The position numbers and the translations under genes are program-made. Below, in pieces: positions 5,490-30,850 of a stretch of 64,000 nt of DNA. Source of the DNA: Sipunculus nudus (taxonomy: Eukaryota > Annelida > Sipuncula > Golfingiida > Sipunculidae); contig CM049318.1 of the NCBI GenBank assembly GCA_026874595.1, forward strand, positions 34,307,956-34,371,955, written 5' to 3'. The stretch's first letter is position 1; every line of letters begins with the position of its first letter. The notes under the pieces were generated by a model. That model was not told where the DNA came from and did not search any database. It worked only from the letters and a program-made list of their open reading frames with translations.

Positions 5490-6593
5490 TCCCCCCCACT
5501 GTAAAATATGCGCGGGGCACGACCGGTGTTTTACTATACGAGTCTCTAATTGGCTATGCATGTCTTTGGTCAGGCGTCTTTCCACCAATCGCGGAGCGTA
5601 TATTCTTGTGAGAAATCGATCATATACAGAAATGAAACTGTCGGTCTTTTGTCATGGGATCTGACTGCTAAAAAATTGCAGTCGGACACCTGTGTGTAAT
5701 GTAAAATAAGAAAAATTGGATTTTTATTCGCATTACGTTATATTTCCTTGCTGATATTAATATGAAGGCTTCCATATCGAATGCGCGGGAAATAATTCTC
5801 GCCCTTGATGAAAATAAGGTAAAGATACCTGTTAATCTGCGTAAAGCATAATAGCTCCACAGGTGAGTATAGACCGACGATCAACATTTAAAAAAATTGT
5901 GAGATAACTGCATGAACTGTAAAAATTCAGGGGACATGATGTTTCATTATTAAAAATAAAATGCCAAGTCACCAATTAATGAAAATTGCCTGGACGATCG
6001 AAAAACTAAACAACATGCACTCTGCAGAGAAACAGGAATAATGTACCTGATGCGTTTATGATATTTTTATTGAAATAAAATGTCAATTTTTTTGTTAAAT
6101 CATAATGTCAGTTAGATCTTAGGAAACTAATCAATGATTTAGCACTCGTAGAGCATTTAGAAAATCCACATATACAATTAAACATTTGAACCACATTTTG
6201 ACATAGAAATAAAAGCAAAAAAAAAAAAACCAACTAATAACCTGCCTTTTCACGGGAGGGGCTTGATAAAACATTGACGATTAATCTCTGTCGAAAAATT
6301 TATATTTTAAAAGATTGTGGATATCATGTTATATTAAATATATGTCTATATGCCACTTTACATTTGAGCGTTTAGAATATATATGATCTGACTGTAGTGC
6401 AGTCATGCAAAAATTACCTTCATGAGTCTGCCATGCTCACTATCAGGAGAGCCTGCTGGCCAAGACTTAACGTTTACGTCGGACGCTCTCATTTTCTGTC
6501 TTTCCTTCTTTACATAAGTACCGCTCATCCACAATATGGTTCTTTCGTTTGTTTGCCCTCCAGCGGTTGGAGAACTTCAAAAAGTTTAGAGAT
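5490..6593 (+). repeat. R1 copy B, left part, split by LINE copy 1
   Basis: Collinear with R1 copy A from 'gcgcgggg' through the 'ctccagcggttggag' hairpin and 'aaaaagtttagagat', where LINE copy 1 begins. The match resumes at 11702 on the far side of the LINE. Compared with copy A, small indels are present, including extra sequence at 6000-6380. Confidence 0.75.
6584..6593 (+). repeat. Target-site duplication of LINE copy 1, 3' side
   Basis: 'gtttagagat' lies directly before the 15-16-nt T run (the LINE poly-A read on the plus strand). The identical 10-mer follows the LINE 5' end at 11702-11711. Confidence 0.75.
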
Positions 6594-6609
6594 TTTTTTT
6601 TTTTTTTTA

Positions 6610-6801
6610 TATTGTTTATTAAAATCAGGATATATATATAAATACACAATTATAAAGTCTGTTAGCAATCCATATTAACCTTCATATACGAAATTCACAT
6701 GCAAGTATACAAACAAATGCTAAATTTAAACCACACCTTCAACAATATATCAACCAACATTCAACAGTAACTCCCCCCCCCCCCCGCCAATTAAAAAAAG
6801 G
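6610..6801 (-). other. LINE copy 1 3' UTR with G tract
   Basis: About 190 nt from the ORF2 stop to the poly-A tail. On the minus strand it holds a run of 13 Gs (plus 6773-6785) just after the stop; copy 2 has 15. A G-rich stretch in the 3' UTR also occurs in mammalian L1 elements. Whether it matters here is unknown. Confidence 0.7.
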
Positions 6802-9800
6802 TCAAATATTAACACAGAACTCATAATCATCATCTACTGAACACAGTGCATTCTTATAACACCACAAATCCACAAAAGCTCTTTTCTGTCCAAGTTCTAT
6901 AAATTTTAAGTGCTCTTCTTTTAACCTACTGGTGATTAACGTTTTAAACCAAATAACATTATTCACATCATTATTGTACAGTCTCATATTTCTACATTTC
7001 CACAGTATGTATTTACCCGAAACAAGAAGGAAATCTAAAAGCTTAATGCATACCTCTGAAAAATCTCCCTGTCTATGGTTAAATCCAAAACATATAGTAA
7101 ATAGATTTAAAGTAACAGTTTCCTCAGCAACTCTGTTAAATATGTAATTAATCTCTTTCCAAAATCTTAAAGCTACTGAACAGTCATAAAATATGTGCAA
7201 ATTTGTTTCTCGTCTTAAACATACATCACATAAATCATCCGATAATATTTTACATTTCTTTAAAAAATCCTTTGTTGGCAGAGCAAAATGTAACGACTTC
7301 CAGTTAATATCCAAGTGTAATCTGTCACTAAGTTTAAAATAACATCTGCTAAAGACATGTTTTGTTTCCAAATCGTTATTAAAAATGTTCCGCCATTTCA
7401 CCATACAAGCTGGAGAATTCTTCATGAGCAACATGCCATACAACAATTTAACAGAAAAATTTGAAATAGATATTTCATTTTTCCCCTGATTAATCACGAA
7501 ATCAGACGTATAATCTGAGTCCCTTCCGCACCTTAAAATATTAACCCAATCTGAATCAATACAATTTATTAATTCCTCGTACATCTTTTCGATTTTACCA
7601 TCCGGTTTAGTTTTATACCGTGCGGATACCTCATCGAACCTGTGGAAATATCCGATACGTCTATTCCAAATGTGTTTTATTTTACAACATCCATTTTCAA
7701 TAAATTCTTTAAGGAAGAACTTTTCACCAGAATCATTAATAATCTCATCATTCAGGAACAGTATTTGATCAAAAATTGCAGTTTTGTTCATAGGTTGGAT
7801 CTTATACGTAACTTTCAATTTATACCAAGCGTCCAACATTTCCCGATACACAACTGGTTGATCTCGACAATTCTTATAAGTAACATTATAGCTACATCTT
7901 AATATGTTTTTACCAAATGAGGTGCCTCTGTGCAAACCAATAAAATACTCCGCTAAAATGCGACATTTGTGATCCATGTTTAATACTTTGGATATCCATG
8001 TGATTCTCTGTGCAATAATCTTATTTTTAATGGACACCAGATTTTGTCCACCATTATTCCTAGGTAGCATGATGATATCTTTGGCCACCAGGTGTCTCTT
8101 ATAGCTCCAGAAAAAGTCAATAAGAAGCTTTTCTATCTTATCAGACACCCATGATGGCATATGAATAATATTAGAAAAGTACCATATTCCACTACTAGCA
8201 ATTGAATTAATAATAACCATCCTACCTGTAAAAGACAAATTCCGGTGAGACCACATAGCCAAAACATTTTGCAACTTCTTAATTTTAACCTCCCAATTTT
8301 CATTACACACATCAGTATTTCCAAAATAAAACCCTAATACTTTTACTTGATTAGATGTCCACTTAATATTACCTGGTGTTTCGTTCTTACCAACGTTACA
8401 ACCTAGCCACAAACCTTCTGTTTTTTCCTTATTGATCTTTGCCCCAGAAGCTCGCTGAAAAATATTTAAAAGAGTTAGACAAGCAGTTATCGATTCAGTA
8501 TCTGAAACAAAAATAGAAGTATCATCTGCATACTGTACGACTTTTAACTCTGTGTCGTCTGGTAACTTTATACCTTTAATATTATCATCACATCGAATGG
8601 CATTTGCCATTATCTCTGCAACTATAATATACAAAAGAGGACTTAAAGGACACCCTTGTCTAGTGCCTCTTGAAAGAGTGAAAAAGGACGACAGGAAACC
8701 ATTTATCTTAACACAGCTCTGCACATCTGTGTAACACAATTGTATCCAATTAATAAACCCTGGCCCAAATCCGAAGATTTTTAGACATTTAACCATAAAT
8801 CTCCAATCAATTCTATCGAAAGCTTTTTCCTGGTCTAAACATAACATAGCACCAGGTATTTGTTTAAAGTTGACATAATCTATCACATCTCTTATTAAGG
8901 AAACAGACTGCATTATGGAACGACCTTTAATAGAGCAAGTCTGGTCATTTGCAATTATTTCATGCAACACTTTTAACAACCGATTACTCAAACATTTAGT
9001 CAAGATCTTATAATCTACGTTAAGTAAAGAAATCGGACGCCAATTTTTTAACAGTTCACGATCACCTTTTTTAAATAACAATGATATTACACCCCGCCTC
9101 TGTGATGTAGAGAGATTTCCAATTTTATACGCCGTATTCACCACTTTAATGAAATAATTTCCTAAAATGTCCCAAAAATGTAAATAAAATTCCGCTGTCA
9201 ATCCATCAAGCCCTGGACTTTTTTCCTTTTTAAAACTCTTTAAGGCTACTGTGGCTTCCTGTAAAGAAATTTCACCTTCACATTGTTGCATGTTTTCAAT
9301 TGAAAGTTTCTTAGAGACCTTGGCCAACAGTAAATCTTGGGCCCTGGAGTCAGTTTGTTCCGCAGAATAAAGACATGAATAAAAAGATTTCCCCACTTCG
9401 AGCATGTCCTTTATGTCACAATGAACAATGCCCTTTTCATCCTTTAAAGTCTGCATGGTTCGGCGAGCACCTCTTTGTTTTTCGAGCCCAACAAAGAATT
9501 TTGTCAGGCGTTCACCTTGCTCCCTAAACTGGACTTTACACCTAATGGCCGTAGCATTTGTTTCTTTCTCATTGAAATCCCTCAGTTTCTGTTCTATTTT
9601 TAAAAGTTGTTCTAAATTAACACACAAACCTTGCTCGCGCTCTGAAAGCAAGGAATTGTATGCTCTTTCCAAGCGGAATTTTAACCTTCTTTTAGCCTTG
9701 ACCTTATCTTTACAATAGCTTCTGGTAAGCTCTTTGAGTTTTTGTTTCCCCAGATCCCACCAGAACAAAATATTATTGTACTTTTCCTTACTAGTTTGCC

Positions 9801-10647
9801 AACGCTTCCAAAAATCTGTCACTATTTCATTGTATAAAGGATCTTTTAAAACTGAACTATTGAAATGCCAGTAGCCTGGCCCCCGAGGTTTACAGTTAAA
9901 ATCGATGTTCGCTGTGACACATTCATGGTCAGATAAAATATTCCTTAAAATAGCACAATGTTTAATGAAAAGTACACGTCCAGTATAAATTCTGTCAATC
10001 CTAGTATGTACTTCATACCTTTTCCAGTGATGGCTAAAAGCTTTTGTTTCAGGGTTTAAAACTCTGAAAGAATCTGTTAGCATGTATTTCCGTTTAAGAT
10101 TATTAATTTCTTCTCTACCAACAAGACAACCTTTATGTGATATATTACCACCTTGTTTATCGAGATTGATATTTTCTATGCAATTAAAATCCCCCGCTAA
10201 TATTACCGGACACTTCACTGGATCTGTTGATAGAATAAAATTATTTAAGTTTGAGAGAAAGGTACGTCTGTCGCTTGAACCATTAGGACAGTATACATTA
10301 ATTAAATTACATTGAGTTTGACCAAAATCAAGAATAATACTCACAATGCGGCCTTCGGTGTCTGTTTTCTGCTCTAGGACTTGCCCGTCACAAGCGGTGG
10401 ATACCCATATTACAGTTCCACAGTGACGATTAGCACAACCACTGGAAAAAACATTACCTTGCCAGGACTTAAAGATTTGAGAACTCTCATAGGACGATAA
10501 AAAGGTTTCCTGTAAACAAAGAATATCAATTTTATGTTTCAAAACGTAGTTTCTTAATGACAGTTGTTTTTGTGTAACACAAAGTCCTCTGATGTTAAGA
10601 CTAGCTACAATGAAAGTTAATAAACAGTATATAAAAGGTAAATTCAT
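6802..10647 (-). CDS. LINE ORF2: endonuclease-reverse transcriptase (copy 1, intact)
   Basis: 1281 residues. An N-terminal AP-like endonuclease nicks target DNA and a reverse transcriptase copies the LINE RNA into the nick. Endonuclease landmarks are SLNIRG (N18), LQET (E47), Y119, AGDFN (D153, N155), RIDRIY (D218) and SDH (239-241). The RT spans roughly 475-760: SPGLDG, NWRPISLLN, the first catalytic Asp in CLDQEKAFD (D605), GTRQGCPLSPLL and YADD (706-709). A C-terminal Cys/His cluster (CDVC...H....C) fits the zf-RVT type found in LINEs. The start is 13 nt after the ORF1 stop, as expected for a bicistronic LINE. No frameshift or stop is present. An upstream out-of-frame ATG overlaps the linker, so re-initiation is plausible. 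Confidence 0.93.
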   Translation of the reverse strand: MNLPFIYCLLTFIVASLNIRGLCVTQKQLSLRNYVLKHKIDILCLQETFLSSYESSQIFKSWQGNVFSSGCANRHCGTVIWVSTACDGQVLEQKTDTEGRIVSIILDFGQTQCNLINVYCPNGSSDRRTFLSNLNNFILSTDPVKCPVILAGDFNCIENINLDKQGGNISHKGCLVGREEINNLKRKYMLTDSFRVLNPETKAFSHHWKRYEVHTRIDRIYTGRVLFIKHCAILRNILSDHECVTANIDFNCKPRGPGYWHFNSSVLKDPLYNEIVTDFWKRWQTSKEKYNNILFWWDLGKQKLKELTRSYCKDKVKAKRRLKFRLERAYNSLLSEREQGLCVNLEQLLKIEQKLRDFNEKETNATAIRCKVQFREQGERLTKFFVGLEKQRGARRTMQTLKDEKGIVHCDIKDMLEVGKSFYSCLYSAEQTDSRAQDLLLAKVSKKLSIENMQQCEGEISLQEATVALKSFKKEKSPGLDGLTAEFYLHFWDILGNYFIKVVNTAYKIGNLSTSQRRGVISLLFKKGDRELLKNWRPISLLNVDYKILTKCLSNRLLKVLHEIIANDQTCSIKGRSIMQSVSLIRDVIDYVNFKQIPGAMLCLDQEKAFDRIDWRFMVKCLKIFGFGPGFINWIQLCYTDVQSCVKINGFLSSFFTLSRGTRQGCPLSPLLYIIVAEIMANAIRCDDNIKGIKLPDDTELKVVQYADDTSIFVSDTESITACLTLLNIFQRASGAKINKEKTEGLWLGCNVGKNETPGNIKWTSNQVKVLGFYFGNTDVCNENWEVKIKKLQNVLAMWSHRNLSFTGRMVIINSIASSGIWYFSNIIHMPSWVSDKIEKLLIDFFWSYKRHLVAKDIIMLPRNNGGQNLVSIKNKIIAQRITWISKVLNMDHKCRILAEYFIGLHRGTSFGKNILRCSYNVTYKNCRDQPVVYREMLDAWYKLKVTYKIQPMNKTAIFDQILFLNDEIINDSGEKFFLKEFIENGCCKIKHIWNRRIGYFHRFDEVSARYKTKPDGKIEKMYEELINCIDSDWVNILRCGRDSDYTSDFVINQGKNEISISNFSVKLLYGMLLMKNSPACMVKWRNIFNNDLETKHVFSRCYFKLSDRLHLDINWKSLHFALPTKDFLKKCKILSDDLCDVCLRRETNLHIFYDCSVALRFWKEINYIFNRVAEETVTLNLFTICFGFNHRQGDFSEVCIKLLDFLLVSGKYILWKCRNMRLYNNDVNNVIWFKTLITSRLKEEHLKFIELGQKRAFVDLWCYKNALCSVDDDYEFCVNI

Positions 10648-10660
10648 GAAAGTTCATAAT

Positions 10661-11617
10661 TTAGGATAGAAAGTCCTGATCCTCAGAGGTCGGCTGGTCT
10701 GAGACTCTGGTAGAACTTGGGGTCTGAAGATCCGTGTTCCGGTCTCGGTCTTGTGGGTGTCGGCGAGGGTCTCCTGGTAGTTGGCTGGACGGCGATTCTG
10801 GTAATTTCCTCTTTCTACGTGAATTATGGGCGACATCTACGGGTGTATCAACAATCTGCAGGGGCGGGAAGGGATCGTCGTCGTCGAAGTCAGATAACGC
10901 AGCTGCTTGTCCTCTCGGGGGGCTTTCTGGCAGTTCAGGTTCTACATCTTTTACGGCCTCTGCGCTTTCAGTAGTCGGAAGGGTTACCATCAATCCAGGT
11001 TCGTCGGCTTTAGTTGGTCTTTCTCTTTCTCTATCGGGACAGTCTCTAGCCACATGGCCCTCCACTTTGCAGCGCCAGCATAGCCTGGTCTTCCCCTTGT
11101 AACGAATGTAAGCAACATGACGTTCATTACCCAGGAAGAATTCCATTCTATCGGGGACTTCTCTCTCAATAAACATCAAAATCTCTCTGTCCAAAGTCGG
11201 CAGCTCAGTCTCTGGCCAAAACTTGTGGCGGCACCCCTTCACGACTCTGCCGTATCTCTTCATTTCTGCCGTTATCAACTCGTGAGGGAAATTCAGCGGG
11301 AGACCCCGCAGTGACACCCATAACGGCTTACTCAGTTCAGCCGCCTGAGTGTCTAAAGTCCTCCCCAAACACTGCACACCATTGACTAATACTTCTTCAG
11401 CAAGTTCTGGAGTTCCAAAAATCAGCTGCATTGTGGTACCACTGATTGTATGAACAGCGCACAGCCCCGTCTTGTATTTCTTGACCAGTTCAATGACAGC
11501 TCTATTCAGCTCATCGGGTTGGAATTCGTGTCGGCAGACTAGTGATCGAGCAGCGTGGTGTAGACCGGTTTTACGCATCTGACGGGGAGGCCCATCCTCC
11601 CATGGGTTGGTGGTCAT
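10661..11617 (-). CDS. LINE ORF1: zinc-knuckle nucleic-acid-binding protein (copy 1, intact)
   Basis: 318 residues. It has an N-terminal region of mixed helix/strand character and a stretch around 98-130 that reads like an RRM-type fold (PLWVSLRGLP...RYGRVV). A single CCHC knuckle follows (C180, C183, H188, C193), then a basic/acidic, Ser/Pro-rich tail. Proteins of this layout coat LINE RNA in the retrotransposition particle. The ATG at 11617 is chosen because it is the first in-frame ATG in both copies and leaves an 84-nt 5' UTR. Confidence 0.88.
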   Translation of the reverse strand: MTTNPWEDGPPRQMRKTGLHHAARSLVCRHEFQPDELNRAVIELVKKYKTGLCAVHTISGTTMQLIFGTPELAEEVLVNGVQCLGRTLDTQAAELSKPLWVSLRGLPLNFPHELITAEMKRYGRVVKGCRHKFWPETELPTLDREILMFIEREVPDRMEFFLGNERHVAYIRYKGKTRLCWRCKVEGHVARDCPDRERERPTKADEPGLMVTLPTTESAEAVKDVEPELPESPPRGQAAALSDFDDDDPFPPLQIVDTPVDVAHNSRRKRKLPESPSSQLPGDPRRHPQDRDRNTDLQTPSSTRVSDQPTSEDQDFLS

Positions 11618-11701
11618 TCTGTTTGAGTTTAATCAATCAGTGTAGTTGAGTAGTGGGAAATCGATATGTATAAAAAAACATATAGCAATGACCCTTCGTC
11701 C

Positions 11702-11711
11702 GTTTAGAGAT
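11702..11711 (+). repeat. Target-site duplication of LINE copy 1, 5' side
   Basis: 'gtttagagat', identical to 6584-6593. The R1 sequence 'tcacaatctcaccg' follows directly, matching the flank of LINE copy 2. Confidence 0.75.
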
Positions 11712-12430
11712 TCACAATCTCACCGTTTCAGAGCAAACTTACGCATGTTTAAGAGTATGATAATATAATGCTTTTTATAATTTAAAGGTATTACTTAGAA
11801 TTACATAATTACTAAAAAAAATGGTGTATATACTTGTTAATATCAAACATATTTGTTAATCTAAATAATGTATAAAGATAAACTTTTTTATGTATAACAA
11901 TTTTGTCTTTGTTGAAGACAAAAGAATTATTTGTTCTTATTGAACGGACCGCTAGTAAATATTTGTTACTGGTTGTGGGTAATAGGTGGCGCTGCATGCA
12001 ATCCTCTGAGACATTCCAGCACTCTTCACGCAGAGATCGCTTTCCATTCCTGTCATTTCATTCGACACACTGCACCCACGGAGAACAAATGCCTTGGACC
12101 TCTGCTAAGATTTTCAAGAAAATTTACCATCTTTTATATATAGTGATTTGCTAAATTATAACATTCTTGCGATGCAGTAAACAATTTATCAAAACACTCT
12201 ACATGTATATATTGTAGATTGCCCTCACAAGAAATTCTGCCTAGGCTATTCTTTACGCATGTCAGACCGATACCAGTCTCGCAAAACAAATGTCTGAAAT
12301 AGTTTATACTAGCTTAACAACAAATCCCACTTAATAAGCTGATCTCAATACAACCCATTGAAAACGAAGTTAATTTGCCTTTATTTTCCTTCATGTCATA
12401 CTGATGGCCTGAATAGTGTCATATATAATT
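11702..12430 (+). repeat. R1 copy B, middle part
   Basis: Resumes the R1 match after the LINE: 'tttataatttaaaggta', 'ttactggttgtgggtaataggtggcg', 'catttcattcgacacactgc', 'ttgcgatgcag'. Extra DNA follows at ~12180-12360, and the 'tttattttccttcatgtcata' block appears at 12380-12410. Further insertions separate the tail, which lies at 13354-13383 and 17869-18030. Confidence 0.65.
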
Positions 12431-12609
12431 GATTAGGCCTATACCTGGAATACCATAATTATTAAATATATATTAAATATATATCAGTTTGCTAGGGGCT
12501 GTCCTTTTTATTAGTACTAATATTATTTATATTAATAAAAATATTATCATTAATATTTTTACTTATTAACAATAATATTCATATTATTATTCATATTATT
12601 ATTTTATTA

Positions 12610-12614
12610 TTATA

Positions 12615-12672
<58 letters not shown>
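12610..12672. repeat. (TTA)n microsatellite
   Basis: About twenty TTA/ATT units. The adjoining 12430-13350 is AT-rich with no gene or recognised element. Confidence 0.9.
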
Positions 12673-12673
<1 letters not shown>

Positions 12674-13353
12674 AAAAATAAGAAATTTCAGGAAACAAAA
12701 CAATGTAAAGAAGAGAATATTAAGTGCAAGGGGCATATTTGTTACAGATTATGAGTCTCAAATTAACTTAGGAATTAAGATGAGAAATAAATTCTGTCAT
12801 CAGGGGAAGTGTGACGTGACTCCGGCTGACGGAATGAATAAATTTGCTTATGCATCATGCATGTCACACGAAATGGAACTGCACTAGTGGTTGAAAATAT
12901 TGTAATGGTCTTTTGAGTATTAACGATAGGATAGCATGTTACAAATATGTAAAATGAAGCGTGGAAAACTTATTTTGAATATCTCTGATACCACTTGCAG
13001 GATTAGCCATGACTAGGCCTAAATGCGAGGATGTTGAACACCAGATTGGATAATTGTCAGCTGCAAATTTAAATGTTCTAGGGAAGGCCTCCTGGAGTTC
13101 AAATAACTATTTAATTGAAGGAATACTTCAATGGCATGTTTATGGTGCTTGTTATGCAAACTGACACAAAACAGTGAGAAAAATGAAGCGTAACTCCGAC
13201 TGGTATTGTAGTGTAGGCCTAATTAGCTTGCAGTGCACAGTGCCTGCCGCAGCCTTAGAGAGCACCAGGTGGTCAGTGACCTAGTTTCTGTGCCGTCACG
13301 TTCATGTTCTGATGTGTCTATATATGTGTGTGTGTGTTTGTGTGGGTGTGTAA

Positions 13354-13383
13354 TTTTAAATGAATACAGGACAATGAATAGAC
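13354..13383 (+). repeat. R1 copy B, fragment left of the 4.5-kb insertion
   Basis: 'aaatgaatacagga(c/t)aatgaa' matches copy A at 4266-4286. In copy A the sequence continues directly into the 'tctgctcaacgatat' block. Here that block is 4.5 kb away, at 17905. Confidence 0.6.
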
Positions 13384-13397
13384 ATGGGTGTATGCAA

Positions 13398-13443
13398 GGG
13401 GGGGGGGGGTCGTAAGGGTCGTACGACCCCCCCCCCCCCCCCC
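13398..13443. other. G-run/C-run perfect hairpin
   Basis: Eleven Gs followed by TCGTA, a short loop, TACGA and eighteen Cs. This can fold into a 16-bp perfect stem, and either arm alone can form a G-quadruplex or i-motif. It lies at the left end of the 4.5-kb insertion. Confidence 0.8.
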
Positions 13444-14439
13444 AACATTTTCAAAAGGTCCACATTTTTTCCAATGACATCTTTTTCAAGGGCCTTTTCA
13501 CAATGACATAAATGAAAAAGCATTGATCAGGTACCAGCAATGAGTCGGAAGACCTTGCATATTGCATGACGTAAATCTATCCCAAGTCCAGCAATTCTGA
13601 AACTGAGCCATCCGCTTGAGGCTGGTGGCACTCATTGTGAAAACAGGTGCAACAGCCCCCCCCCCCCCCTGAAATTGGTTCACCCAATTTCGTACATTGT
13701 CAGGGCGTGCCTAGACCTTTCGCATAATAAGCTCATCAAGTTGTATTTGTAAGCGCAGGCCCTAGTTAAAACTGTTACAATTAAGTACTAATATAGGATG
13801 ACCGTCTCCAGTAGCTATGTTGGACAAACAAAAGCCTCATTGGAAGTTGCTGCTCATGCATAGGTCATGTCGTGTACGTTTTTGCATGGGGCAAGACAGT
13901 CCTGATGGTTAGACATTATATACCGGTTCTGTGATTGGTTCAGGTAACGTTAGTGTGTTGTGTTGAACTTCGCCATGGTTTATCTAGCTTAAGTCACATT
14001 CAGAACGTCAATATATTATCTCCAGAAAACTGAATAAAATATATATCCTTTCTATACTTAAACATCACTGATTTTAAATGAATCTTAATAATTTGATCGA
14101 ATAGACCCATTACCAACAGGCGTAGATCCGGGAATCCCCCCCCCCCCCCCCCGGATCGGGACCTGTCAATGATTCTCACCCCTGAGGCAAAGTAGATCTA
14201 ACTCTATGCATAGGCAAGAACAAGGAGAAACTGAGGCTTTGCATTTTTAACAACAACATTGGACCTGTAACCTAGGTTAGCTTGCTTTTGCCTTCTTGAT
14301 AAAAAGTTTCAGCCACTTTTCATGCACAACTGTTGAACACAATACAAAACAGCATGAGAACATCTTTGGCAAACTAATGGTCACAAGTAGCTTACCTAGT
14401 TTTGGCGCCTGTGTACAGCCTGTATATATGTATTGATTG

Positions 14440-15237
14440 TGTTACGGAACCTAATAACAACAGATCATGTAGTCGTGACAAGCATAAGTTTTGTTACGGA
14501 GATAAATAAAAATCATATTCTGTAACACTAGGCAGCGTGAAATGTCATAGGGGAACGAATAAAGAAGTCAATGTTTTTTTTTTGTTAACAAATAATTATA
14601 ATTTATGCTTAAAACAATCCTCACATTAAAATGCAAAATCAATACAAATACACAGTAAAACAATAAAAATGTACAGTACCAGAGTGTCCGGATCCTATTG
14701 AAAACATATAATCAAGATGAACAGTTCACGTAAATCTTCTCAGAGAATAATAGTCCAATTCAATCCCGAAATCAATCTGTTCTAATCCAAAAGTGAAGTT
14801 CTGGTAATAGTCCCAAAGGCAAACTGAATAAAATCTGTTACAAAGTTCGAAGAATATCTATAAGTGCTGCAATTATCGGAAAGGTCCACAAACTGACTCA
14901 CACTCTTCCGTGTCCGCTGGAATATTTCTCTCTCCTTCTCTCTCGGCTCTAAACACAGCCCCTTATTTATAACTTTTTATCCGAAAGTACTAGAAATGGA
15001 AAATCCCTAAGAACAATACACACGTTACAGGAACAGACTTGAACCATCTAGAACAAAGAACGCTGTGTTTCTACACTTCAGACCCCACACGCGGGCCGGC
15101 CGGCTCGCGCGTCTCCCATTGCAACGGACTATGCTTGCCTAATAGACACATGCAACACTCCTGCGCACAATAAACCAGGGCCTGCCTTACACGAATCAGA
15201 ATGCAAACAGCGCACAATAAAAGAGACACATGTAACA
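14440..15237 (-). mobile_element. Solo LTR, copy 1
   Basis: A ~800-bp element with ends TGTTACGGAA...ATGTAACA, flanked on both sides by 'attg' (a likely 4-bp target duplication). It is related along its length to 20301-21131 and 51838-52564. On the minus strand TATAAATAAG (14962-14971) precedes a conserved 'cagcggacac' region, and a poly-A-signal-like 'cataaatt' lies before the 3' end, so the LTR points left. No retroviral-type internal coding region adjoins, so it is a solo LTR left by recombination. Confidence 0.7.
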
Positions 15238-21379: not shown

Positions 21380-21410
<31 letters not shown>

Positions 21411-21797
21411 TCACTTAAGGAGAACTATAACTGCCCACACCCTGATATTGTATATATCTATATTAATCTATATATCTGTATTTTATATATGTCAGTTTAT
21501 ATATATGTGTGTACATATATATTTATTTCAGTGTATATATATATATAAACACTGGACAGCCACATTCTGGTTAGTATTTATATATAATTGTTATGTAATA
21601 TCAGTCAGGGCATAATTCTTGTGTACCGGTAATCTTGTAGTTTCTTTCGTAATAAATTCTTGTGGCCACTAATTGACTTTTATCTGCCTTAGTTCATATT
21701 GTCTGTTGTATGCATGGAGGAGTATTTGTAAATTCAGCCAAGCTACCCCAACTAATTAATTACAAAAACCGCATCCCTGTAATACTGTTTATCAGAT

Positions 21798-21998
21798 TTA
21801 GGGGTGGGGCCCAAGTTTAGTTCCATTTGGTGGCAGCGGTGGGGGGCATTCGTGTAACACCATTTTGGCCACCCCGCAGTTGCAGGAATCCGTGCAGAAC
21901 TTCTCTTCAGATAGACATGGACAAGCCCCCCTCCGGTCGCCCCCTCCGACGACCGGACAGGTTACAGATGTTCCCTCAAGAACACGCACTTCTGTCAC
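21798..21998 (-). pseudogene. Possible fragment with CXC-type cysteine motif
   Basis: A 66-residue open frame contains CPCLSEEKFCTDSCNCG, i.e. C-x-C-x6-C-x3-C-x-C. This spacing resembles cysteine-rich zinc motifs at the ends of many invertebrate proteins of unknown function. There is no convincing start, and splice sites were not identified. It could equally be chance; the GC-richness relative to the surroundings is mild support. Confidence 0.25.
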
Positions 21999-22326
21999 TT
22001 GATCCTAGATTTTTTCTAGACATCTCTACGCGAGTGAAACTAAAATGGGAATCGGATGAATACTCCAGTTGAAGGTTTTGTATAGATATAGGATGCGTAG
22101 AACGCGTCATAGCTGCCCACTGATATCGCCAGTGCTGTAACTTCAGCTGCTGTCACAGGTGCTGGCCTGCTGAAGTCGTATTCTAAATAGAACCAACTCC
22201 CTCACTGGGTCACAGCGTCGGACGACGTTAACCCGCCCAGAAGACTAGACAATCACTTTAATTTTTCTGACACTAGGCTGACAATAGGCCTATAGGCTAT
22301 ATATAGCTTAACGTTTAGCATGCTGG

Positions 22327-22390
22327 AGTCAACCATATCGGCCGCGGGCTGGGCAGCGGGCCACCATTTCGGTCGCCGGGCTACCTCATT
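22327..22390 (+). repeat. GC-rich inverted repeat, left arm
   Basis: 'agtcaaccatatcggccgc' through 'ctacctcatt'. The reverse complement occurs at 23786-23849 with few changes. Together the arms bracket ~1.4 kb of AT-rich DNA and may be the ends of a non-autonomous element. Confidence 0.6.
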
Positions 22391-22678
22391 TCTACAAACA
22401 AGGTTTCATCATAATTAAAACTAGCTTGTTCAACCAGAAATATGATACACTTAATAAAATTATATATTTATTCAAAATATGATTAGTCGTATTTTTATAA
22501 GAAACATGCGTAAGTAAAAATCACTTGCATTGAATAATAAAGAACATTACTTTGTCCTGTAACTTCGTTCACAGATGTATATGAAAGGATAGCAAATCAG
22601 GTTTTAATTGTCGTGACGTATTTGAAACAATCGTCTAAAGTTTAATTAATAGGCACTACCAAAAAAATAATTGTTAAA

Positions 22679-22706
22679 CTCTCTCTCTCTCTCTATCTCT
22701 CTCTCT

Positions 22707-22756
<50 letters not shown>

Positions 22757-22775
22757 ACATATATACTTTTATACT

Positions 22776-22809
<34 letters not shown>
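22679..22809. repeat. Compound (CT)n(TA)n microsatellites
   Basis: CT run, then TA run to ~22753, then a second TA run at 22780-22807. The interval 22400-23780 otherwise shows no gene. Confidence 0.9.
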
Positions 22810-22812
<3 letters not shown>

Positions 22813-23785
22813 TAAATATGTGTCTGTGTTTGTGTATAATTGCTGTATTTCTAATAAACTGTGAACCGAACCGATGTATGAGTATATAAAAATATTTTAT
22901 ATATCATCTGATATATACGATTAATTAAGTTTGATCATGTTATAATTTTACACTTTTTACTTCAATCGTAATGTTTATATGGTATATATTGATCATAATA
23001 TATATCATGATTATATCGTATGTTAAAAACTACGTCATTCAGTACATTGTGCTATTTGTATTATCCATTTGAAATAAGTATAAAATCCATTTAAACTTCA
23101 CTTACTTGCTCGGCGATAATTGTTGCTGTGAATCAATGGTCAGTTGCAAGAGTACCCGCCTCGAAGTGCAGGTGTGATAAACCAAGAATCCTTGACCTAG
23201 TATACAAAGAGCTAACGCGCTGTGCCGTTTCCCTCTTCGTTCATTTTGTACTCGACTGTGATAGTTGGAAATACGTTTTGCATTTTCCAGGAGTATCCCA
23301 GTTTTTTTTAGAGTTTACTTTATAATTTGTTAGCAAGATGTTTATAGTTTTAATTTATAGTTTTAAGACAAAGTTGAATATATTTCGGGATCGAAAGTTT
23401 CGATTGTGACCTCTGTATAAATAGTTATGATTTATAGTTAGATTTCTTAATTGCAGTAATTTAGATTTCGTTTGAATTAAATGAACACATATGTAATTTC
23501 TATATTTATAATATATATAATAAAATATATTTAAAAAGATGTATAAAGTTTTTATTTGTTGATTTATTTCTGCTGTTTATTCCTGATGTTTGTTTTGTTT
23601 TGTTTGAAGGTGTTTGTGTAAATGTGTACTGAAATTTGAGATTGTGTTTGTGGAAATGTTTGTACTGAAATGTGTGCGCTTGAGTTCTTCCAATGATTAA
23701 ATTCACATTGAAGGTTTTATCAGTTAGGACTTAATATATAGCCGTGTATGTTGTAATTAGCTAGCCCAGAAAAACGGCGGCTAGT

Positions 23786-23975
23786 AATGAAGTAGCACAG
23801 CGGCCGAAATGGTGCCCCGCAGCCCAAGTCGCGGCCGATATGGTTGACTGACTAGAGCCAGGGCCCTGCAGTGGTTTCGTCGGGGTTGCGGCCGAAATGG
23901 TTGCCCGTTGTGCGCTGGCGGCCAATATAGTCGATTTGAGGCCGGCGGCCGATAACGTCGGCGGCAGAAATCGAC
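23786..23975 (-). repeat. GC-rich inverted repeat, right arm, and 'gcggccgaaatggt' cluster
   Basis: 23786-23849 is the inverted partner of 22327-22390. Beyond it, 'gcggcc(g/a)a(a/t)atggt' and 'cggcggc' motifs recur to 23975. The result is a CpG- and NotI-like-rich patch unlike the AT-rich surroundings. Confidence 0.6.
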
Positions 23976-24470
23976 CTATACCACTGACGCTTGTGGGGGA
24001 CCTATATTTGTTGCTTGGCCTATTTTCTTTTTGCACGGTTCGTTTGTTCAATAAGATTACCGACTTGTCGTTTTTGTGATGTAATATCCTGTATTTCTCC
24101 TTCATACCTAGGTTACATTGAGCCGAGGTACGTTACATCTCCGGATGTAATCCTTATTTTTTTCTCACTTGCTGGGCGGGCTAAATGAAGATGGCATTAT
24201 AACCTCGTTACTGGCTGCCGTGTGTGATTTGGAGGTTGGTAGGCTCTCATTTCAAATGAACGGCCAATCTTTCATTTTATAAATGTTCCTTTTTTCCTTT
24301 ACTGAGTAGAGTGTGCGATATTAGGCCTAAAATCTAAATTTGTTTTATAATCCAGTCGATCATACCACAATACATGTGATCATTTTTAAGCCTTATAGGC
24401 GAACATAACAAATATAGAACACCAAAACCATATATAAATTTTTAAGATTACAGTTTAAGTGAGGTTGCAT
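23976..24470. other. No gene recognised
   Basis: Mixed-composition DNA with only short open frames; nothing nameable on either strand. Confidence 0.4.
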
Positions 24471-24473
24471 CAA

Positions 24474-24483
24474 TATTTGTAAG
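24474..24483. repeat. Target-site duplication of the MITE, left
   Basis: 'tatttgtaag', repeated exactly at 24866-24875. Confidence 0.8.
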
Positions 24484-24865
24484 TAGTCTCTCCAACAGAC
24501 GCCAGGTGCCGCTACCGCTCTTGCACCAGTACGTCTGTTATTGGACGCCATTTTTCTTAGGAACGGAAGTGTTGTTTGGCATGCGCAAGGAATCCCCCTC
24601 CTATACCACCCTTGCAATAGACAAGCAAAAGTGGATTATTTTTGCCACACAACCAAACAATATTGTTTACTTGTCTATATTTGGGTCTGCTTGGTTTTTG
24701 CAAGGGCGACACCCATTCTTGTTTCACCTCCAGATGCTAGGGGGGTTTCCTTGCGCATGCCCAACGGCACTTCCGTTTTTCAAGATTCTTGAAAAAAATG
24801 GCGTCCAATAACAGACGTACTGGTGCAAGAGCGGTAGCGGCACCTGGCGTCTGTAGGAGAGACTA
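24484..24865. mobile_element. MITE with 72-bp near-perfect terminal inverted repeats
   Basis: A 382-bp element. The left arm TAGTCTCTCCAACAGACGCC... (24484-24555) pairs with the right arm over 72 bp with one mismatch. A weaker inverted match ('cggaagtg', 'ggcatgcgcaaggaa', 'ccccc') extends to ~24605. The exact 10-bp duplication 'tatttgtaag' flanks it. Long inverted ends and a 9-10-bp duplication fit Mutator-like non-autonomous elements; the superfamily is inference. No transposase is encoded. The high arm identity suggests a recent insertion or gene conversion between the arms. Confidence 0.85.
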
Positions 24866-24875
24866 TATTTGTAAG
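24866..24875. repeat. Target-site duplication of the MITE, right
   Basis: Exact copy of 24474-24483. Confidence 0.8.
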
Positions 24876-24879
24876 CAGT

Positions 24880-25290
24880 CATTGTGTTTCCTCGATACGA
24901 CGGTTCAGCGTGCAAAGCATATCGGTAAGGCCAAAAAAAAATAAGGTATGGTTCTCAGGCAATTTTTTTCAGAAATCGGTGCGGGCGGGCGGTATTTTAT
25001 TTTTGACCTCTTTTTGAACGCTCCGATAAAATGTCATATGATCAGTGAAAAATATGAAAATAACAATTTTTTTTTGCTAAACAGGCAAAGGCACTACATA
25101 AATTGTATTATTTATCTACTTGAAAGATAAAAATCAAAATAAAAATTTTTGATGCGGGGGTTAAAAATTGACGCGGGCGGTGCCTGAGAACCACACCTTT
25201 CATTTTTTTTTGGCCTAATGGTAACAATGTAGAGTACCGAAACATCGGTATATTGAAAAACCCTACAAAGTTCTCTATATACGAACCCCT
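24880..25290. other. No gene recognised; imperfect inverted repeat
   Basis: 'taaggtatggttctcaggcaa...ggtgcgggcggg' at 24940-24985 is the inverted relative of 'cgggcggtgcctgagaaccacacctttc' at 25174-25201. The two enclose ~190 bp, suggesting a second small inverted-repeat element directly beside the 382-bp MITE. Confidence 0.5.
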
Positions 25291-25294
25291 CTCC

Positions 25295-25360
25295 CACTTT
25301 CTGTTTTTCCCTTCACTTGTGAGCTCTCCAGCGCATGGAGAGCGCCAAAAAGTGTGAGAT
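25295..25360 (+). repeat. R1 copy C, left fragment at LINE copy 2
   Basis: 'ctttctgtttttccc', 'ctctccagcgcatggagag' and 'ccaaaaagtgtgagat' align with R1 copies A and B directly before the insertion point. The hairpin stem ctctcca/tggagag is perfect here. No R1 sequence is obvious further left, so the copy is truncated. Confidence 0.6.
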
Positions 25361-25570
25361 TTTTTTTTTTTTTTATATTGTTTATTAAAATCAGGATATA
25401 TATATAAATACACAATTATAAAGTCTGTTAGCAATCCATATTAACCTTCATATACGAAATTTCACATGCAAGTATACAAACAAATACTAAATTTAAACCA
25501 CACCTTCAACAATATATCAACCAACATTCAACAGTAACTCCCCCCCCCCCCCCCGCCAATTAAAAAAAGG

Positions 25571-28500
25571 TCAAATATTAACACAGAACTCATAATCATC
25601 ATCTACTGAACACAGTGCATTCTTATAACACCACAAATCCAGAAAAGCTCTTTTCTGTCCAAGTTCTATAAATTTTAAGTGCTCTTCTTTTAACCTACTG
25701 GTGATTAACGTTTTAAACCAAATAACATTATTCACATCATTATTGTACAGTCTCATATTTCTACATTTCCACAGTATGTATTTACCCGAAACAAGAAGGA
25801 AATCTAAAAGCTTAATGCATACCTCTGAAAAATCTCCCTGTCTATGGTTAAATCCAAAACATATAGTAAATAGATTTAAAGTAACAGTTTCCTCAGCAAC
25901 TCTGTTAAATATGTAATTAATCTCTTTCCAAAATCTTAAAGCTACTGAACAGTCATAAAATATGTGCAAATTTGTTTCTCGTCTTAAACATACATCACAT
26001 AAATCATCCGATAATATTTTACATTTCTTTAAAAAATCCTTTGTTGGCAGAGCAAAATGTAACGACTTCCAGTTAATATCCAAGTGTAATCTGTCACTAA
26101 GTTTAAAATAACATCTGCTAAAGACATGTTTTGTTTCCAAATCGTTATTAAAAATGTTCCGCCATTTCACCATACAAGCTGGAGAATTCTTCATGAGCAA
26201 CATGCCATACAACAATTTAACAGAAAAATTTGAAATAGATATTTCATTTTTCCCCTGATTAATCACGAAATCAGACGTATAATCTGAGTCCCTTCCGCAC
26301 CTTAAAATATTAACCCAATCTGAATCAATACAATTTATTAATTCCTCGTACATCTTTTCGATTTTACCATCCGGTTTAATTTTATACCGTGCGGATACCT
26401 CATCGAACCTGTGGAAATATCCGATACGTCTATTCCAAATGTGTTTTATTTTACAACATCCATTTTCAATAAATTCTTTAAGGAAGAACTTTTCACCAGA
26501 ATCATTAATAATCTCATCATTCAGGAACAGTATTTGATCAAAAATTGCAGTTTTGTTCATAGGTTGGATCTTATACGTAACTTTCAATTTATACCAAGCG
26601 TCCAACATTTCCCGATACACAACTGGTTGATCTCGACAATTCTTATAAGTAACATTATAGCTACATCTTAATATGTTTTTACCAAATGAGGTGCCTCTGT
26701 GCAAACCAATAAAATACTCCGCTAAAATGCGACATTTGTGATCCATGTTTAATACTTTGGATATCCATGTGATTCTCTGTGCAATAATCTTATTTTTAAT
26801 GGACACCAGATTTTGTCCACCATTATTCCTAGGTAGCATGATGATATCTTTGGCCACCAGGTGTCTCTTATAGCTCCAGAAAAAGTCAATAAGAAGCTTT
26901 TCTATCTTATCAGACACCCATGATGGCATATGAATAATATTAGAAAAGTACCATATTCCACTACTAGCAATTGAATTAATAATAACCATCCTACCTGTAA
27001 AAGACAAATTCCGGTGAGACCACATAGCCAAAACATTTTGCAACTTCTTAATTTTAACCTCCCAATTTTCATTACACACATCAGTATTTCCAAAATAAAA
27101 CCCTAATACTTTTACTTGATAAGATGTCCACTTAATATTACCTGGTGTTTCGTTCTTACCAACGTTACAACCTAGCCACAAACCTTCTGTTTTTTCCTTA
27201 TTGATCTTTGCCCCAGAAGCTCGCTGAAAAATATTTAAAAGAGTTAGACAAGCAGTTATCGATTCAGTATCTGAAACAAAAATAGAAGTATCATCTGCAT
27301 ACTGTACGACTTTTAACTCTGTGTCGTCTGGTAACTTTATACCTTTAATATTATCATCACATCGAATGGCATTTGCCATTATCTCTGCAACTATAATATA
27401 CAAAAGAGGACTTAAAGGACACCCTTGTCTAGTGCCTCTTGAAAGAGTGAAAAAGGACGACAGGAAACCATTTATCTTAACACAGCTCTGCACATCTGTG
27501 TAACACAATTGTATCCAATTAATAAACCCTGGCCCAAATCCGAAGATTTTTAGACATTTAACCATAAATCTCCAATCAATTCTATCGAAAGCTTTTTCCT
27601 GGTCTAAACATAACATAGCACCAGGTATTTGTTTAAAGTTGACATAATCTATCACATCTCTTATTAAGGAAACAGACTGCATTATGGAACGACCTTTAAT
27701 AGAGCAAGTCTGGTCATTTGCAATTATTTCATGCAACACTTTTAACAACCGATTACTCAAACATTTAGTCAAGATCTTATAATCTACGTTAAGTAAAGAA
27801 ATCGGACGCCAATTTTTTAACAGTTCACGATCACCTTTTTTAAATAACAATGATATTACACCCCGCCTCTGTGATGTAGAGAGATTTCCAATTTTATACG
27901 CCGTATTCACCACTTTAATGAAATAATTTCCTAAAATGTCCCAAAAATGTAAATAAAATTCCGCTGTCAATCCATCAAGCCCTGGACTTTTTTCCTTTTT
28001 AAAACTCTTTAAGGCTACTGTGGCTTCCTGTAAAGAAATTTCACCTTCACATTGTTGCATGTTTTCAATTGAAAGTTTCTTAGAGACCTTGGCCAACAGT
28101 AAATCTTGGGCCCTGGAGTCAGTTTGTTCCGCAGAATAAAGACATGAATAAAAAGATTTCCCCACTTCGAGCATGTCCTTTATGTCACAATGAACAATGC
28201 CCTTTTCATCCTTTAAAGTCTGCATGGTTCGGCGAGCACCTCTTTGTTTTTCGAGCCCAACAAAGAATTTTGTCAGGCGTTCACCTTGCTCCCTAAACTG
28301 GACTTTACACCTAATGGCCGTAGCATTTGTTTCTTTCTCATTGAAATCCCTCAGTTTCTGTTCTATTTTTAAAAGTTGTTCTAAATTGACACACAAACCT
28401 TGCTCGCGCTCTGAAAGCAAGGAATTGTATTCTCTTTCCAAGCGGAATTTTAACCTTCTTTTAGCCTTGACCTTATCTTTACAATAGCTTCTGGTAAGCT

Positions 28501-29416
28501 CTTTGAGTTTTTGTTTCCCCAGATCCCACCAGAACAAAATATTATTGTACTTTTCCTTACTAGTTTGCCAACGCTTCCAAAAATCTGTCACTATTTCATT
28601 GTATAAAGGATCTTTTAAAACTGAACTATTGAAATGCCCGTAGCCTGGCCCCCGAGGTTTACAGTTAAAATCGATGTTCGCTGTGACACATTCATGGGCA
28701 GACAAAATATTCCTTAAAATAGCACAATGTTTAATGAAAAGTACACGTCCAGTATAAATTCTGTCAATCCTAGTATGTACTTCATACCTTTTCCAGTGAT
28801 GGCTAAAAGCTTTTGTTTCAGGGTTTAAAACTCTGAAAGAATCTGTTAGCATGTATTTCCGTTTAAGATTATTAATTTCTTCTCTACCAACAAGACAACC
28901 TTTATGTGATATATTACCTCCTTGTTTATCGAGATTGATATTTTCTATGCAATTAAAATCCCCCGCTAATATTACCGGACACTTCACTGGATCTGTTGAT
29001 AGAATAAAATTATTTAAGTTTGAGAGAAAGGTACGTCTGTCGCTTGAACCATTAGGACAGTATACATTAATTAAATTACATTGAGTTTGACCAAAATCAA
29101 GAATAATACTCACAATGCGGCCTTCGGTGTCTGTTTTCTGCTCTAGGACTTGCCCGTCACAAGCGGTGGATACCCATATTACAGTTCCACAGTGACGATT
29201 AGCACAACCACTGGAAAAAACATTACCTTGCCAGGACTTAAAGATTTGAGAACTCTCATAGGACGATAAAAAGGTTTCCTGTAAACAAAGAATATCAATT
29301 TTATGTTTCAAAACGTAGTTTCTTAATGACAGTTGTTTTTGTGTAACACAAAGTCCTCTGATGTTAAGACTAGCTACAATGAAAGTTAATAAACAGTATA
29401 TAAAAGGTAAATTCAT
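25571..29416 (-). CDS. LINE ORF2 (copy 2), endonuclease catalytic Asp lost
   Basis: 1281 residues, open throughout, with an intact RT (D605, YADD 706-709). Differences from copy 1 include D240A in the SDH motif, W260G, A329E, and Asn-to-Tyr, Thr-to-Ile and Val-to-Leu changes further on. In AP-type endonucleases the Asp of S-D-H orients the catalytic His, so D240A should abolish nicking. The RT could still act at existing breaks. The start is by analogy to copy 1. Confidence 0.9.
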   Translation of the reverse strand: MNLPFIYCLLTFIVASLNIRGLCVTQKQLSLRNYVLKHKIDILCLQETFLSSYESSQIFKSWQGNVFSSGCANRHCGTVIWVSTACDGQVLEQKTDTEGRIVSIILDFGQTQCNLINVYCPNGSSDRRTFLSNLNNFILSTDPVKCPVILAGDFNCIENINLDKQGGNISHKGCLVGREEINNLKRKYMLTDSFRVLNPETKAFSHHWKRYEVHTRIDRIYTGRVLFIKHCAILRNILSAHECVTANIDFNCKPRGPGYGHFNSSVLKDPLYNEIVTDFWKRWQTSKEKYNNILFWWDLGKQKLKELTRSYCKDKVKAKRRLKFRLEREYNSLLSEREQGLCVNLEQLLKIEQKLRDFNEKETNATAIRCKVQFREQGERLTKFFVGLEKQRGARRTMQTLKDEKGIVHCDIKDMLEVGKSFYSCLYSAEQTDSRAQDLLLAKVSKKLSIENMQQCEGEISLQEATVALKSFKKEKSPGLDGLTAEFYLHFWDILGNYFIKVVNTAYKIGNLSTSQRRGVISLLFKKGDRELLKNWRPISLLNVDYKILTKCLSNRLLKVLHEIIANDQTCSIKGRSIMQSVSLIRDVIDYVNFKQIPGAMLCLDQEKAFDRIDWRFMVKCLKIFGFGPGFINWIQLCYTDVQSCVKINGFLSSFFTLSRGTRQGCPLSPLLYIIVAEIMANAIRCDDNIKGIKLPDDTELKVVQYADDTSIFVSDTESITACLTLLNIFQRASGAKINKEKTEGLWLGCNVGKNETPGNIKWTSYQVKVLGFYFGNTDVCNENWEVKIKKLQNVLAMWSHRNLSFTGRMVIINSIASSGIWYFSNIIHMPSWVSDKIEKLLIDFFWSYKRHLVAKDIIMLPRNNGGQNLVSIKNKIIAQRITWISKVLNMDHKCRILAEYFIGLHRGTSFGKNILRCSYNVTYKNCRDQPVVYREMLDAWYKLKVTYKIQPMNKTAIFDQILFLNDEIINDSGEKFFLKEFIENGCCKIKHIWNRRIGYFHRFDEVSARYKIKPDGKIEKMYEELINCIDSDWVNILRCGRDSDYTSDFVINQGKNEISISNFSVKLLYGMLLMKNSPACMVKWRNIFNNDLETKHVFSRCYFKLSDRLHLDINWKSLHFALPTKDFLKKCKILSDDLCDVCLRRETNLHIFYDCSVALRFWKEINYIFNRVAEETVTLNLFTICFGFNHRQGDFSEVCIKLLDFLLVSGKYILWKCRNMRLYNNDVNNVIWFKTLITSRLKEEHLKFIELGQKRAFLDLWCYKNALCSVDDDYEFCVNI

Positions 29417-29429
29417 GAAAGTTCATAAT

Positions 29430-30386
29430 TTAGGATAGAAAGTCCTGATCCTCAGAGGTCGGCTGGTCTGAGACTCTGGTAGAACTTGGGGTCTGAAGAT
29501 CCGTGTTCCGGTCTCGGTCTTGTGGGTGTCGGCGAGGGTCTCCTGGTAGTTGGCTGGACGGCGATTCTGGTAATTTCCTCTTTCTACGTGAATTATGGGC
29601 GACATCTACGGGTGTATCAACAATCTGCAGGGGCGGGAAGGGATCGTCGTCGTCGAAGTCAGATAACGCAGCTGCTTGTCCTCTCGGGGGGCTTTCTGGC
29701 AGTTCAGGTTCTACATCTTTTACGGCCTCTGTGCTTTCAGTAGTCGGAAGGGTTACCATCAATCCAGGTTCGTCGGCTTTAGTTGGTCTTTCTCTTTCTC
29801 TATCGGGACAGTCTCTAGCCACATGGCCCTCCACTTTTCAGCGCCAGCATAGCCTGGTCTTCCCCTTGTAACGAATGTAAGCAACATGACGTTCATTACC
29901 CAGGAAGAATTCCATTCTATCGGGGACTTCTCTCTCAATAAACATCAAAATCTCTCTGTCCAAAGTCGGCAGCTCGGTCTCTGGCCAAAACTTGTGGCGG
30001 CACCCCTTCACGACTCTGCCGTATCTCTTCATTTCTGCCGTTATCAACTCGTGAGGGAAATTCAGCGGGAGACCCCGCAGTGACACCCATAACGGCTTAC
30101 TCAGTTCAGCCGCCTGAGTGTCTAAAGTCCTCCCCAAACACTGCACACCATTGACTAATACTTCTTCAGCAAGTTCTGGAGTTCCAAAAATCAGCTGCAT
30201 TGTGGTACCACTGATTGTATGAACAGCGCACAGCCCCGTCTTGTATTTCTTGACCAGTTCAATGACAGCTCTATTCAGCTCATCGGGTTGGAATTCGTGT
30301 CGGCAGACTAGTGATCGAGCAGCGTGGTGTAGACCGGTTTTACGCATCTGACGGGGAGGCCCATCCTCCCATGGGTTGGTGGTCAT
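29430..30386 (-). pseudogene. LINE ORF1 (copy 2), broken in the zinc knuckle
   Basis: Same 318-codon frame as copy 1, but Cys183 (the second Cys of the CCHC knuckle) is replaced by TGA (plus 29835-29837). This leaves a 182-residue product lacking the knuckle and tail, and an open remainder of 134 codons (29430-29834). A Ser-Ala to Ser-Thr change lies in the tail. Readthrough or re-initiation could express the tail but not a complete knuckle. Confidence 0.9.
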
Positions 30387-30470
30387 TCTGTTGGAGTTCA
30401 ATCAATCAGTGTAGTTGAGTAGTGGGAAATCGATATGTTTAAAAAAACATATAGCAATGGCCCTTCGTCC

Positions 30471-30850
30471 TTCACATCTCACCGTTTTTGATGGATAAAC
30501 AGATACGTGAGAATGAGTCTCCCTATAATGCTTTCTATATTTTAAAGGTATTATTAAGGATTACATAATTACACAAAACTTAGTTTTTACACCTAATAAT
30601 TATAAATATTTTCATTTATTTAAGTGGGTGTAATAAATAATTATTTTTTATGTTTTACATTTTTGTTTTTGTTGAAGACAAAAGAAATAATTGCTTCTTT
30701 TTAAACGGATTGCTAGTAAATATTTGTTACCGGTAGCGGATAATAGGTGGCGCTACATGCAACGGGACGCTAACAGATCATATATCTTATGGGAGATTCC
30801 CATACTCATCACGCAGCCATCTCTATCCATTCCTGGCAATAGTGTTGTAT
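30471..30850 (+). repeat. R1 copy C, right part
   Basis: Directly follows the LINE 5' end: 'tcacatctcaccg', 'ctttctatattttaaaggta', 'gttgaagacaaaagaa', 'atttgttaccggtagcgg' and 'aataggtggcgctacatg' match copy B. The match fades after ~30840. Confidence 0.7.

Follow-up and report, generated by a model that had tools for sequence, protein, structure and literature searches.

Two nearly identical long interspersed nuclear elements (LINEs), W1 (6595..11701) and W2 (25360..30470), lie on the minus strand of a 64-kb window of the Sipunculus nudus genome (G000:C13:34307956-34371955, hereafter the window), and both interrupt the same position of a repeat unit, R1, which raises the question of how this LINE chooses its sites. 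The first-pass annotation of the window had proposed that the LINE is specific for R1. When the 1.43-Gb genome was searched for further copies, it appeared instead that the site choice of this animal LINE depends on a fixed distance from a small nuclear RNA (snRNA)-type promoter element and not on a fixed sequence. We consider it likely, judging from the sequences at the targets, that snRNA-type promoter complexes guide the LINE and that its RNA is made from the host start site.

Young copies and a motif at fixed distance from the nick

The search with the LINE 3′ end gave at least 24 matches; long flanks were taken for 20, in addition to the two in the window, and two weak fragments on C3 were left out of the flank set. 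Fifteen copies are young (96-100% identical over the main aligned stretch), 12 of them full or nearly full length and three truncated (L035, L039 and L040). Because the middle copy of the triple C7a looks like a recombinant of its neighbours, the 15 copies were counted as 14 insertion events, at 10 distinct targets. Only two of these events are in R1, and 12 are outside it. Thus R1-specific targeting, suggested by two insertions at one R1 nucleotide, is ruled out as a candidate and would be exceedingly improbable; taken literally, the finding that most copies lie in unrelated sequence is the outcome that the first-pass annotation had itself named as contrary to its proposal. Apart from paired targets, comparison of flanks between targets gave short or repeat matches only.

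Target choice is nevertheless non-random, as the annotation had held, since the distinct targets carry a promoter-like element at a fixed distance. On the 5′ side in LINE sense, [A/C/T]ACC occurs at -79 to -76 from the nick in all 10 distinct young targets, including those of the three truncated copies, and it was the top of 1280 four-letter patterns scanned over 200 bp (p = 5e-15). None of 2000 sets of T-matched sites, all drawn from one 64-kb window, reached this score, the best null value being 9e-9. This is the constant distance to a promoter-like element, in otherwise unrelated sequences, that a promoter-guided LINE would show. In R1 the motif is TACC, at 11787..11790 (minus strand), 78 bp upstream of the W1 nick, and at 30547..30550 (minus strand), 78 bp upstream of the hand-placed W2 nick. 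With plain 4-mers, free of degenerate letters, the motif did not stand out, the best count there being 5 of 10, for AAAA.

The nicks in this count were placed by the longest-duplication rule, with three exceptions: the search range was widened for L028, the junction of L039 was moved by 3 bases, and the W2 nick was placed by hand. When all nicks were placed by hand, the motif was found in 9 of 10, the miss being L039, where it lies at -84. R1 was counted once, as W2, so that W1 is omitted, as is L031, which belongs to the same family as L028; repeat copies in C7a and C7b, L043 (3′ end lost), L044 (5′ end not covered), the fragment L045/L025 and the distant relatives L046/L047 and L026/L027 were omitted as well. 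Two older copies, L041 and L042, stood outside the scan and are given apart; the motif is at -79 in one and at -74 in the other.

The motif may be a working proximal sequence element (PSE). In one gene each of U1 and U2, a single [A/C/T]ACC was found within 30-110 bp upstream, at -57 (U1) and -58 (U2), followed in both by AT-rich DNA, and the PSE of vertebrate snRNA genes is expected at about this position. It could also be that the LINE endonuclease or another LINE protein reads the DNA directly, either the PSE-like motif or the local shape, without a host promoter complex. Such a reading dispenses with a host partner that we only infer, and some sequence preference exists, the nick following a T at every site except W1 and W2. 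However, the sole strong shared motif of the scan is 76-79 bp away from the nick, the nick-side sequences show by eye no evident kinship beyond T/A, and a second DNA-binding part would be needed to read a distant PSE. We regard direct reading as quite unlikely, and favor guidance by the promoter complex.

Two hits each were seen in four target families: R1 (W1 and W2), the C11 array (L028 and L031), and two places on C7, termed C7a and C7b. In C7a and C7b the copies stand head to tail, with an identical duplication at each junction. The paired copies differ by 17 (R1), 16 (C11), 17 (C7a) and 24 (C7b) positions, and the first 8 bp of the LINE are missing at the middle junction of C7b, so that they were taken as separate insertions. 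Four doubly hit families in a genome of such size are not due to chance. L031 is flanked on both sides by a 1465-bp direct repeat (98.5% identical), as expected in a tandem array. A related LINE on C12, 76% identical at the 3′ end, is present in two copies 60 kb apart (L046 and L047), which might be a further pair sharing one type of target.

Predicted small-RNA genes and host leaders at the targets

At R1 (W1 and W2), C11, L034 and L038, TACC is located 56-65 bp upstream of ACGG, the TACC of L034 in this count being its motif at -90. L054 and L055 are dispersed partial copies of the C11 RNA whose homology starts, by eye, at ACGG, as in reverse-transcribed RNA, and they are probably reverse-transcribed small-RNA pseudogenes. 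Because of this spacing and of the homology beginning there, ACGG is likely to be the transcript start; the predicted host RNA starts are at 11723..11726 for the W1 target and 30482..30485 for the W2 target, both on the minus strand. The 3′ parts of the predicted genes split by the LINEs, each consisting of an Sm-like site and a 3′ stem-loop, are at 6554..6594 (ACTTTTTGA, W1) and 25323..25361 (ACTTTTTGG, W2), also on the minus strand. PSE-like motif, ACGG, Sm-like site and foldable 3′ stem-loop occur together at W1 and W2, C11 and L034, and more weakly at L038. In R1, pair counting of the stem-loop gave 96.8% of cells paired, compared with 42-55% when slid, although no pair is changed on both sides and shuffles were as good in 375 of 500. 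Neither the window nor L028, L032, L034, L036 and L048 matched an Rfam family at the gathering score, and when the C11 gene was searched permissively, two weak matches appeared, both far under the cut-offs of their families. L048 itself (G000:C11:44.56-44.71 Mb) is a tandem array with a 2.98-kb unit where read, recurring at 30 places by pattern; its unit contains a predicted snRNA-like gene of about 113 nucleotides (nt), again with no Rfam family at the gathering score.

Where ACGG is seen, the nicks lie 13-28 bp past it, inside DNA that would be transcribed. This position could mean that integration follows nascent RNA, R-loops or polymerase paused near +20 of highly transcribed small-RNA genes, rather than a complex on the PSE. 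Nevertheless, the nick keeps a narrower range of distances from the motif (76-79) than from ACGG (13-28), and ACGG is absent in three of the seven full-length target families; at L034 the argument hinges on which motif counts as the PSE. Constant distance to ACGG was rejected as the rule for its looser range, and we consider the nascent-RNA explanation rather unlikely compared with measurement from the PSE-type promoter.

Farther upstream, at about 260-330 bp, six loci shared AGRKGGCGC in a motif scan. Six of the seven full-length target families have AGCGYCAYCTA, with up to 2 mismatches, between -281 and -298 of the nick, compared with a null of 5.3% (empty sites, LINE sense). In the window this box, AGCGCCACCTA, which we take to be CTCF-like, is at 11983..11993 (281 bp upstream of the W1 nick) and 30744..30754 (282 bp upstream of the W2 nick), both on the minus strand. 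Over the genome, AGCGYCAYCTA-N190-210-TACC matched 1060 places (327 forward, 733 reverse) versus 27 for the reversed pattern; a control spacing of box and TACC gave 306, and 36 of the 100 listed for it were at C3:65.94-66.30 Mb. Because the strand counts are uneven, many of the 1060 places probably sit in tandem one-strand arrays, and, the gap being 196 or 197 in 47 of 100 listed places, the set could include a dispersed repeat. When ACGG at 48-62 was added to the pattern, 49 places remained, and the reversed pattern kept 1. Of the 49, 30 are in the C11 array, 5 (at 4 loci) lie around the L034 target on C7, two are W1 and W2 themselves, and 12 are elsewhere. The predicted promoter class is genome-wide.

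The 5′ ends of the LINEs carry host sequence. W1 begins with a 34-nt leader (11670..11703, minus strand) identical to the start of the C11 host small-RNA gene array, its first bases overlapping the duplication. With the LINE 5′ end as query, 20 matches other than LINEs were obtained that cover only the first 32-34 bp, 15 of which are in the tandem array at C11:44.58-44.67 Mb. Both L031, inside this array, and L028, at its left edge, sit in units of this type. The dispersed full-length LINEs begin with all or most of the 34 nt, which equal the C11 host unit from ACGG to the insertion point, and L028 differs from the other copies at only 8-16 positions, as a donor would. A spliced leader was dropped as explanation of the 34 nt, since the identity of LINE and host runs, by eye, past any plausible splice donor. 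L032 has an additional 36 nt between duplication and leader, 27 of which, with one mismatch, occur twice on C15 (G000:C15:29259433 and 29277212). These two places are 17.8 kb apart and near a weak match to the LINE ORF1 region (C15:29299723); that they are small-RNA genes is a guess.

R1 units in the window and the number of insertions

R1 is present as four local direct copies: at the left edge of the window, unit A, W1 and W2. A 401-bp R1 query found three places in the genome, all local, with a sensitivity so limited that W2 itself was missed. Within this limit R1 shows no sign of being dispersed; it is a local run of predicted small-RNA genes. Unit A (3411..3736, minus strand) is an uninterrupted paralogue with the box at 3726-3736 (1 mismatch), AACC at 3529-3532 and the 3′ stem-loop at about 3411-3430, and lacks ACGG; its segment 3392-3446 is an uninterrupted relative of the two target sites, in agreement with the empty form assigned to it before. 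One more box with CACC at the usual spacing lies at window position 2348 (minus strand), perhaps another small-RNA gene.

The 3′ tails of W1 and W2 end at one R1 nucleotide, as first described, the T-run (plus strand) beginning 34-35 bp past ctccagcg in both. This motif had been described as a hairpin; it is present at both insertions, but it corresponds to the reverse strand of the 3′ stem-loop of the predicted RNA. The duplication of W1 (gtttagagatt, with the 3′ copy at 6584..6594 and the 5′ copy at 11702..11712; AATCTCTAAAC in LINE sense) is 11 bp and not 10 as earlier reported, and W2 has AA or none, so the contrast between the copies stands.

W1 encodes ORF1 (open reading frame 1; 10661-11617, 318 aa, with a CCHC knuckle) and ORF2 (6802-10647, 1281 aa, with an apurinic/apyrimidinic endonuclease (APE) and a reverse transcriptase (RT)), and the closest solved structure to its ORF2 is the LINE-1 ORF2 protein. 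In W2, ORF2 (25571-29416, 1281 aa) is open with the same two domains; its ORF1 is not among the open frames of at least 250 aa and has, by eye, an in-frame stop. The endonuclease residues SDH of W1 are SAH in W2, and given both changes W2 is probably inactive. The window also has an open reading frame of 440 aa with the two galactosyltransferase family-7 domains (38308-39630, plus strand), likely to be a host beta-1,4-galactosyltransferase.

Could a segmental duplication or gene conversion have carried one insertion from one paralogue to the other? The placement of W1 and W2, and of L028 and L031, in paralogous units would allow it, and the middle C7a copy, as a recombinant of its neighbours, gives an example of exchange. 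However, 17 substitutions separate W1 from W2 along about 5.1 kb, and L028 is nearer to both (14 each) than they are to each other, the 12 full-length or nearly full-length young copies differing pairwise by 5 to 28 when aligned. Their host flanks are only 66% (328 bp) to 79% (241 bp) identical and their duplications are unlike; to the right of the units their surroundings do not align, and to the left only two short repeats do (118 and 50 bp). A single duplicated segment, or a conversion tract, thus accounts poorly for this pair, and was rejected as very unlikely. The nearly identical bodies, the diverged flanks and the occurrence of two insertion events rather than one duplicated block all agree with the first-pass annotation.

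Relatives, known systems and a proposed mechanism

The LINE has the traits of the Tx1/Keno group, namely two ORFs, a CCHC knuckle in ORF1, and APE endonuclease and RT in ORF2. Among 36 scored matches of 11470 candidates, its nearest ORF2 relatives are 23 copies at C3:65.93-66.26 Mb, 58% identical in amino acids over about 6-1274; their location in or beside the U2 array indirectly favors the Tx1-group affinity suggested in the first-pass annotation. At least five of the 23 lie between listed U2 genes; there are at least 46 U2 matches, and those listed end at 65.99 Mb. The U2 snRNA array of this region (G000:C3:65.93-66.30 Mb, 847-bp units) is broken up by LINEs, with 23 ORF2 copies without stops scored, and one pattern match, repeated 36 times, suggests further LINEs there. 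In two loci where a poly(A)/U2 junction is readable, the element in the U2 array is joined to U2 at +22 (T/AAGATC). This point is 80 bp from the U2 motif, or up to 82 bp should the A's be counted with the tail, and no duplication is readable. A coding piece beside the junction encodes an APE endonuclease, 35% identical over 146 aa. In L051 (2437-2760) of the U2 array, a poly(A) end is followed by U2 sequence from +23 to +179 before an APE-type coding stretch begins, an arrangement that would fit duplication of a long part of the target.

Keno, of the Tx1 clade, is described as a U2 snRNA-specific APE-type LINE; Keno and Utopia have the 3′ flanking U2 sequence in common but different endonucleases, and Utopia-1_NVit is occasionally tandem in U2 (PMC4640811). 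TRE5-A of Dictyostelium is a LINE inserting about 47 bp upstream of tRNA genes (PMC5391098), and a link of its ORF1 with TFIIIB is reported (PMC5911963). So LINEs in U2 genes, and LINEs positioned by distance to tRNA genes, are already known in these sources. The window LINE resembles Keno in its APE endonuclease and RT, in its insertion inside predicted snRNA-type genes and in having its nearest genomic relatives in or beside a U2 array, as would be expected for Keno; unlike Keno, it uses many unrelated genes, and none of the 14 young events, nor any of the 24 matches found, itself a lower bound, is in the C3 U2 array. With TRE5-A it shares a fixed distance from a predicted small-RNA promoter irrespective of flanking sequence, whereas TRE5-A is tied to RNA polymerase III (Pol III) and TFIIIB upstream of the gene, and the window LINE, in an animal, lies at a putative PSE-type promoter downstream of the predicted start. 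Like Utopia (U2) and NeSL (spliced leader), it would target small nuclear or spliced-leader RNA genes, and its stacked copies recall the tandems of Utopia-1_NVit; those two groups have a restriction-like endonuclease, which is not found here, the ORF2 domain being an APE. Ty1 and Ty3 are likewise guided to integration by a promoter complex, but are long terminal repeat elements with an integrase, at Pol III genes (PMC5911963). Neither snRNA nor SNAPc is mentioned in the main text of that paper, and a literature search of titles and abstract starts found no LINE placed by distance to a PSE-type promoter.

The mechanism that we propose is that an APE-type LINE with an L1-like ORF2 integrates into snRNA-type genes when the complex assembled on the PSE of a promoter draws in the LINE machinery, where the partner would most likely be the snRNA-activating protein complex (SNAPc) with its polymerase. 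The endonuclease would nick the strand antisense to the LINE, in most cases following a T as read in LINE sense, at the observed position 76-79 bp downstream of the PSE-like motif, 13-28 bp inside the predicted transcript where the start is visible. Target-primed reverse transcription would then leave the LINE in the same sense as the host promoter, which may produce a LINE RNA starting with the host leader, so that the leader seen on the copies would travel along. A second LINE could stack at the same nucleotide, because the upstream duplication keeps promoter motif and nick at the same distance, and head-to-tail arrays would result.

Several observations weigh against this reading, besides the single-window origin of the null sites. 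The PSE, start sites and Sm sites are predictions from sequence. In the case of L034, TACC with ACGG 62 bp downstream is at -90, and -79 is occupied only by a second motif, AACC; extra motifs are also present at L036 (-87, -95) and L035 (-88). L030, L032 and L036 have the motif without ACGG and without an Sm-like site. The box is absent at L038 and at all three truncated copies, and at L030 and L036 it is on the opposite strand with 2 mismatches; the 1060 genomic places of box and TACC show the strand imbalance noted above. The second leader is on no dispersed copy save L032 and perhaps C7a_up, and most dispersed copies, being without it, may never have been expressed at the place where they landed. 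Finally, the coding piece beside the U2 junction may not belong to the 58% family.

A wider reading, to which we give a little less than an even chance, is that the Keno lineage, too, owes its U2 specificity to measurement from the promoter, the SNAPc/PSE complex being recognised and the DNA cut about 78-80 bp downstream. The window LINE would then follow this rule freed from U2, and its insertions would mark a hidden class of snRNA-type genes in this animal, numbering perhaps in the hundreds, with promoters and leaders that serve the LINE for its own expression.

The finding touches the wider question of LINE site choice. If true, it would provide an animal counterpart of TRE5-A, of which the literature search listed none, and the promoter complex, not the RNA sequence, would answer why Keno and Utopia share one U2 position. 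The LINE insertions would also be a natural tag for unannotated snRNA-type genes.

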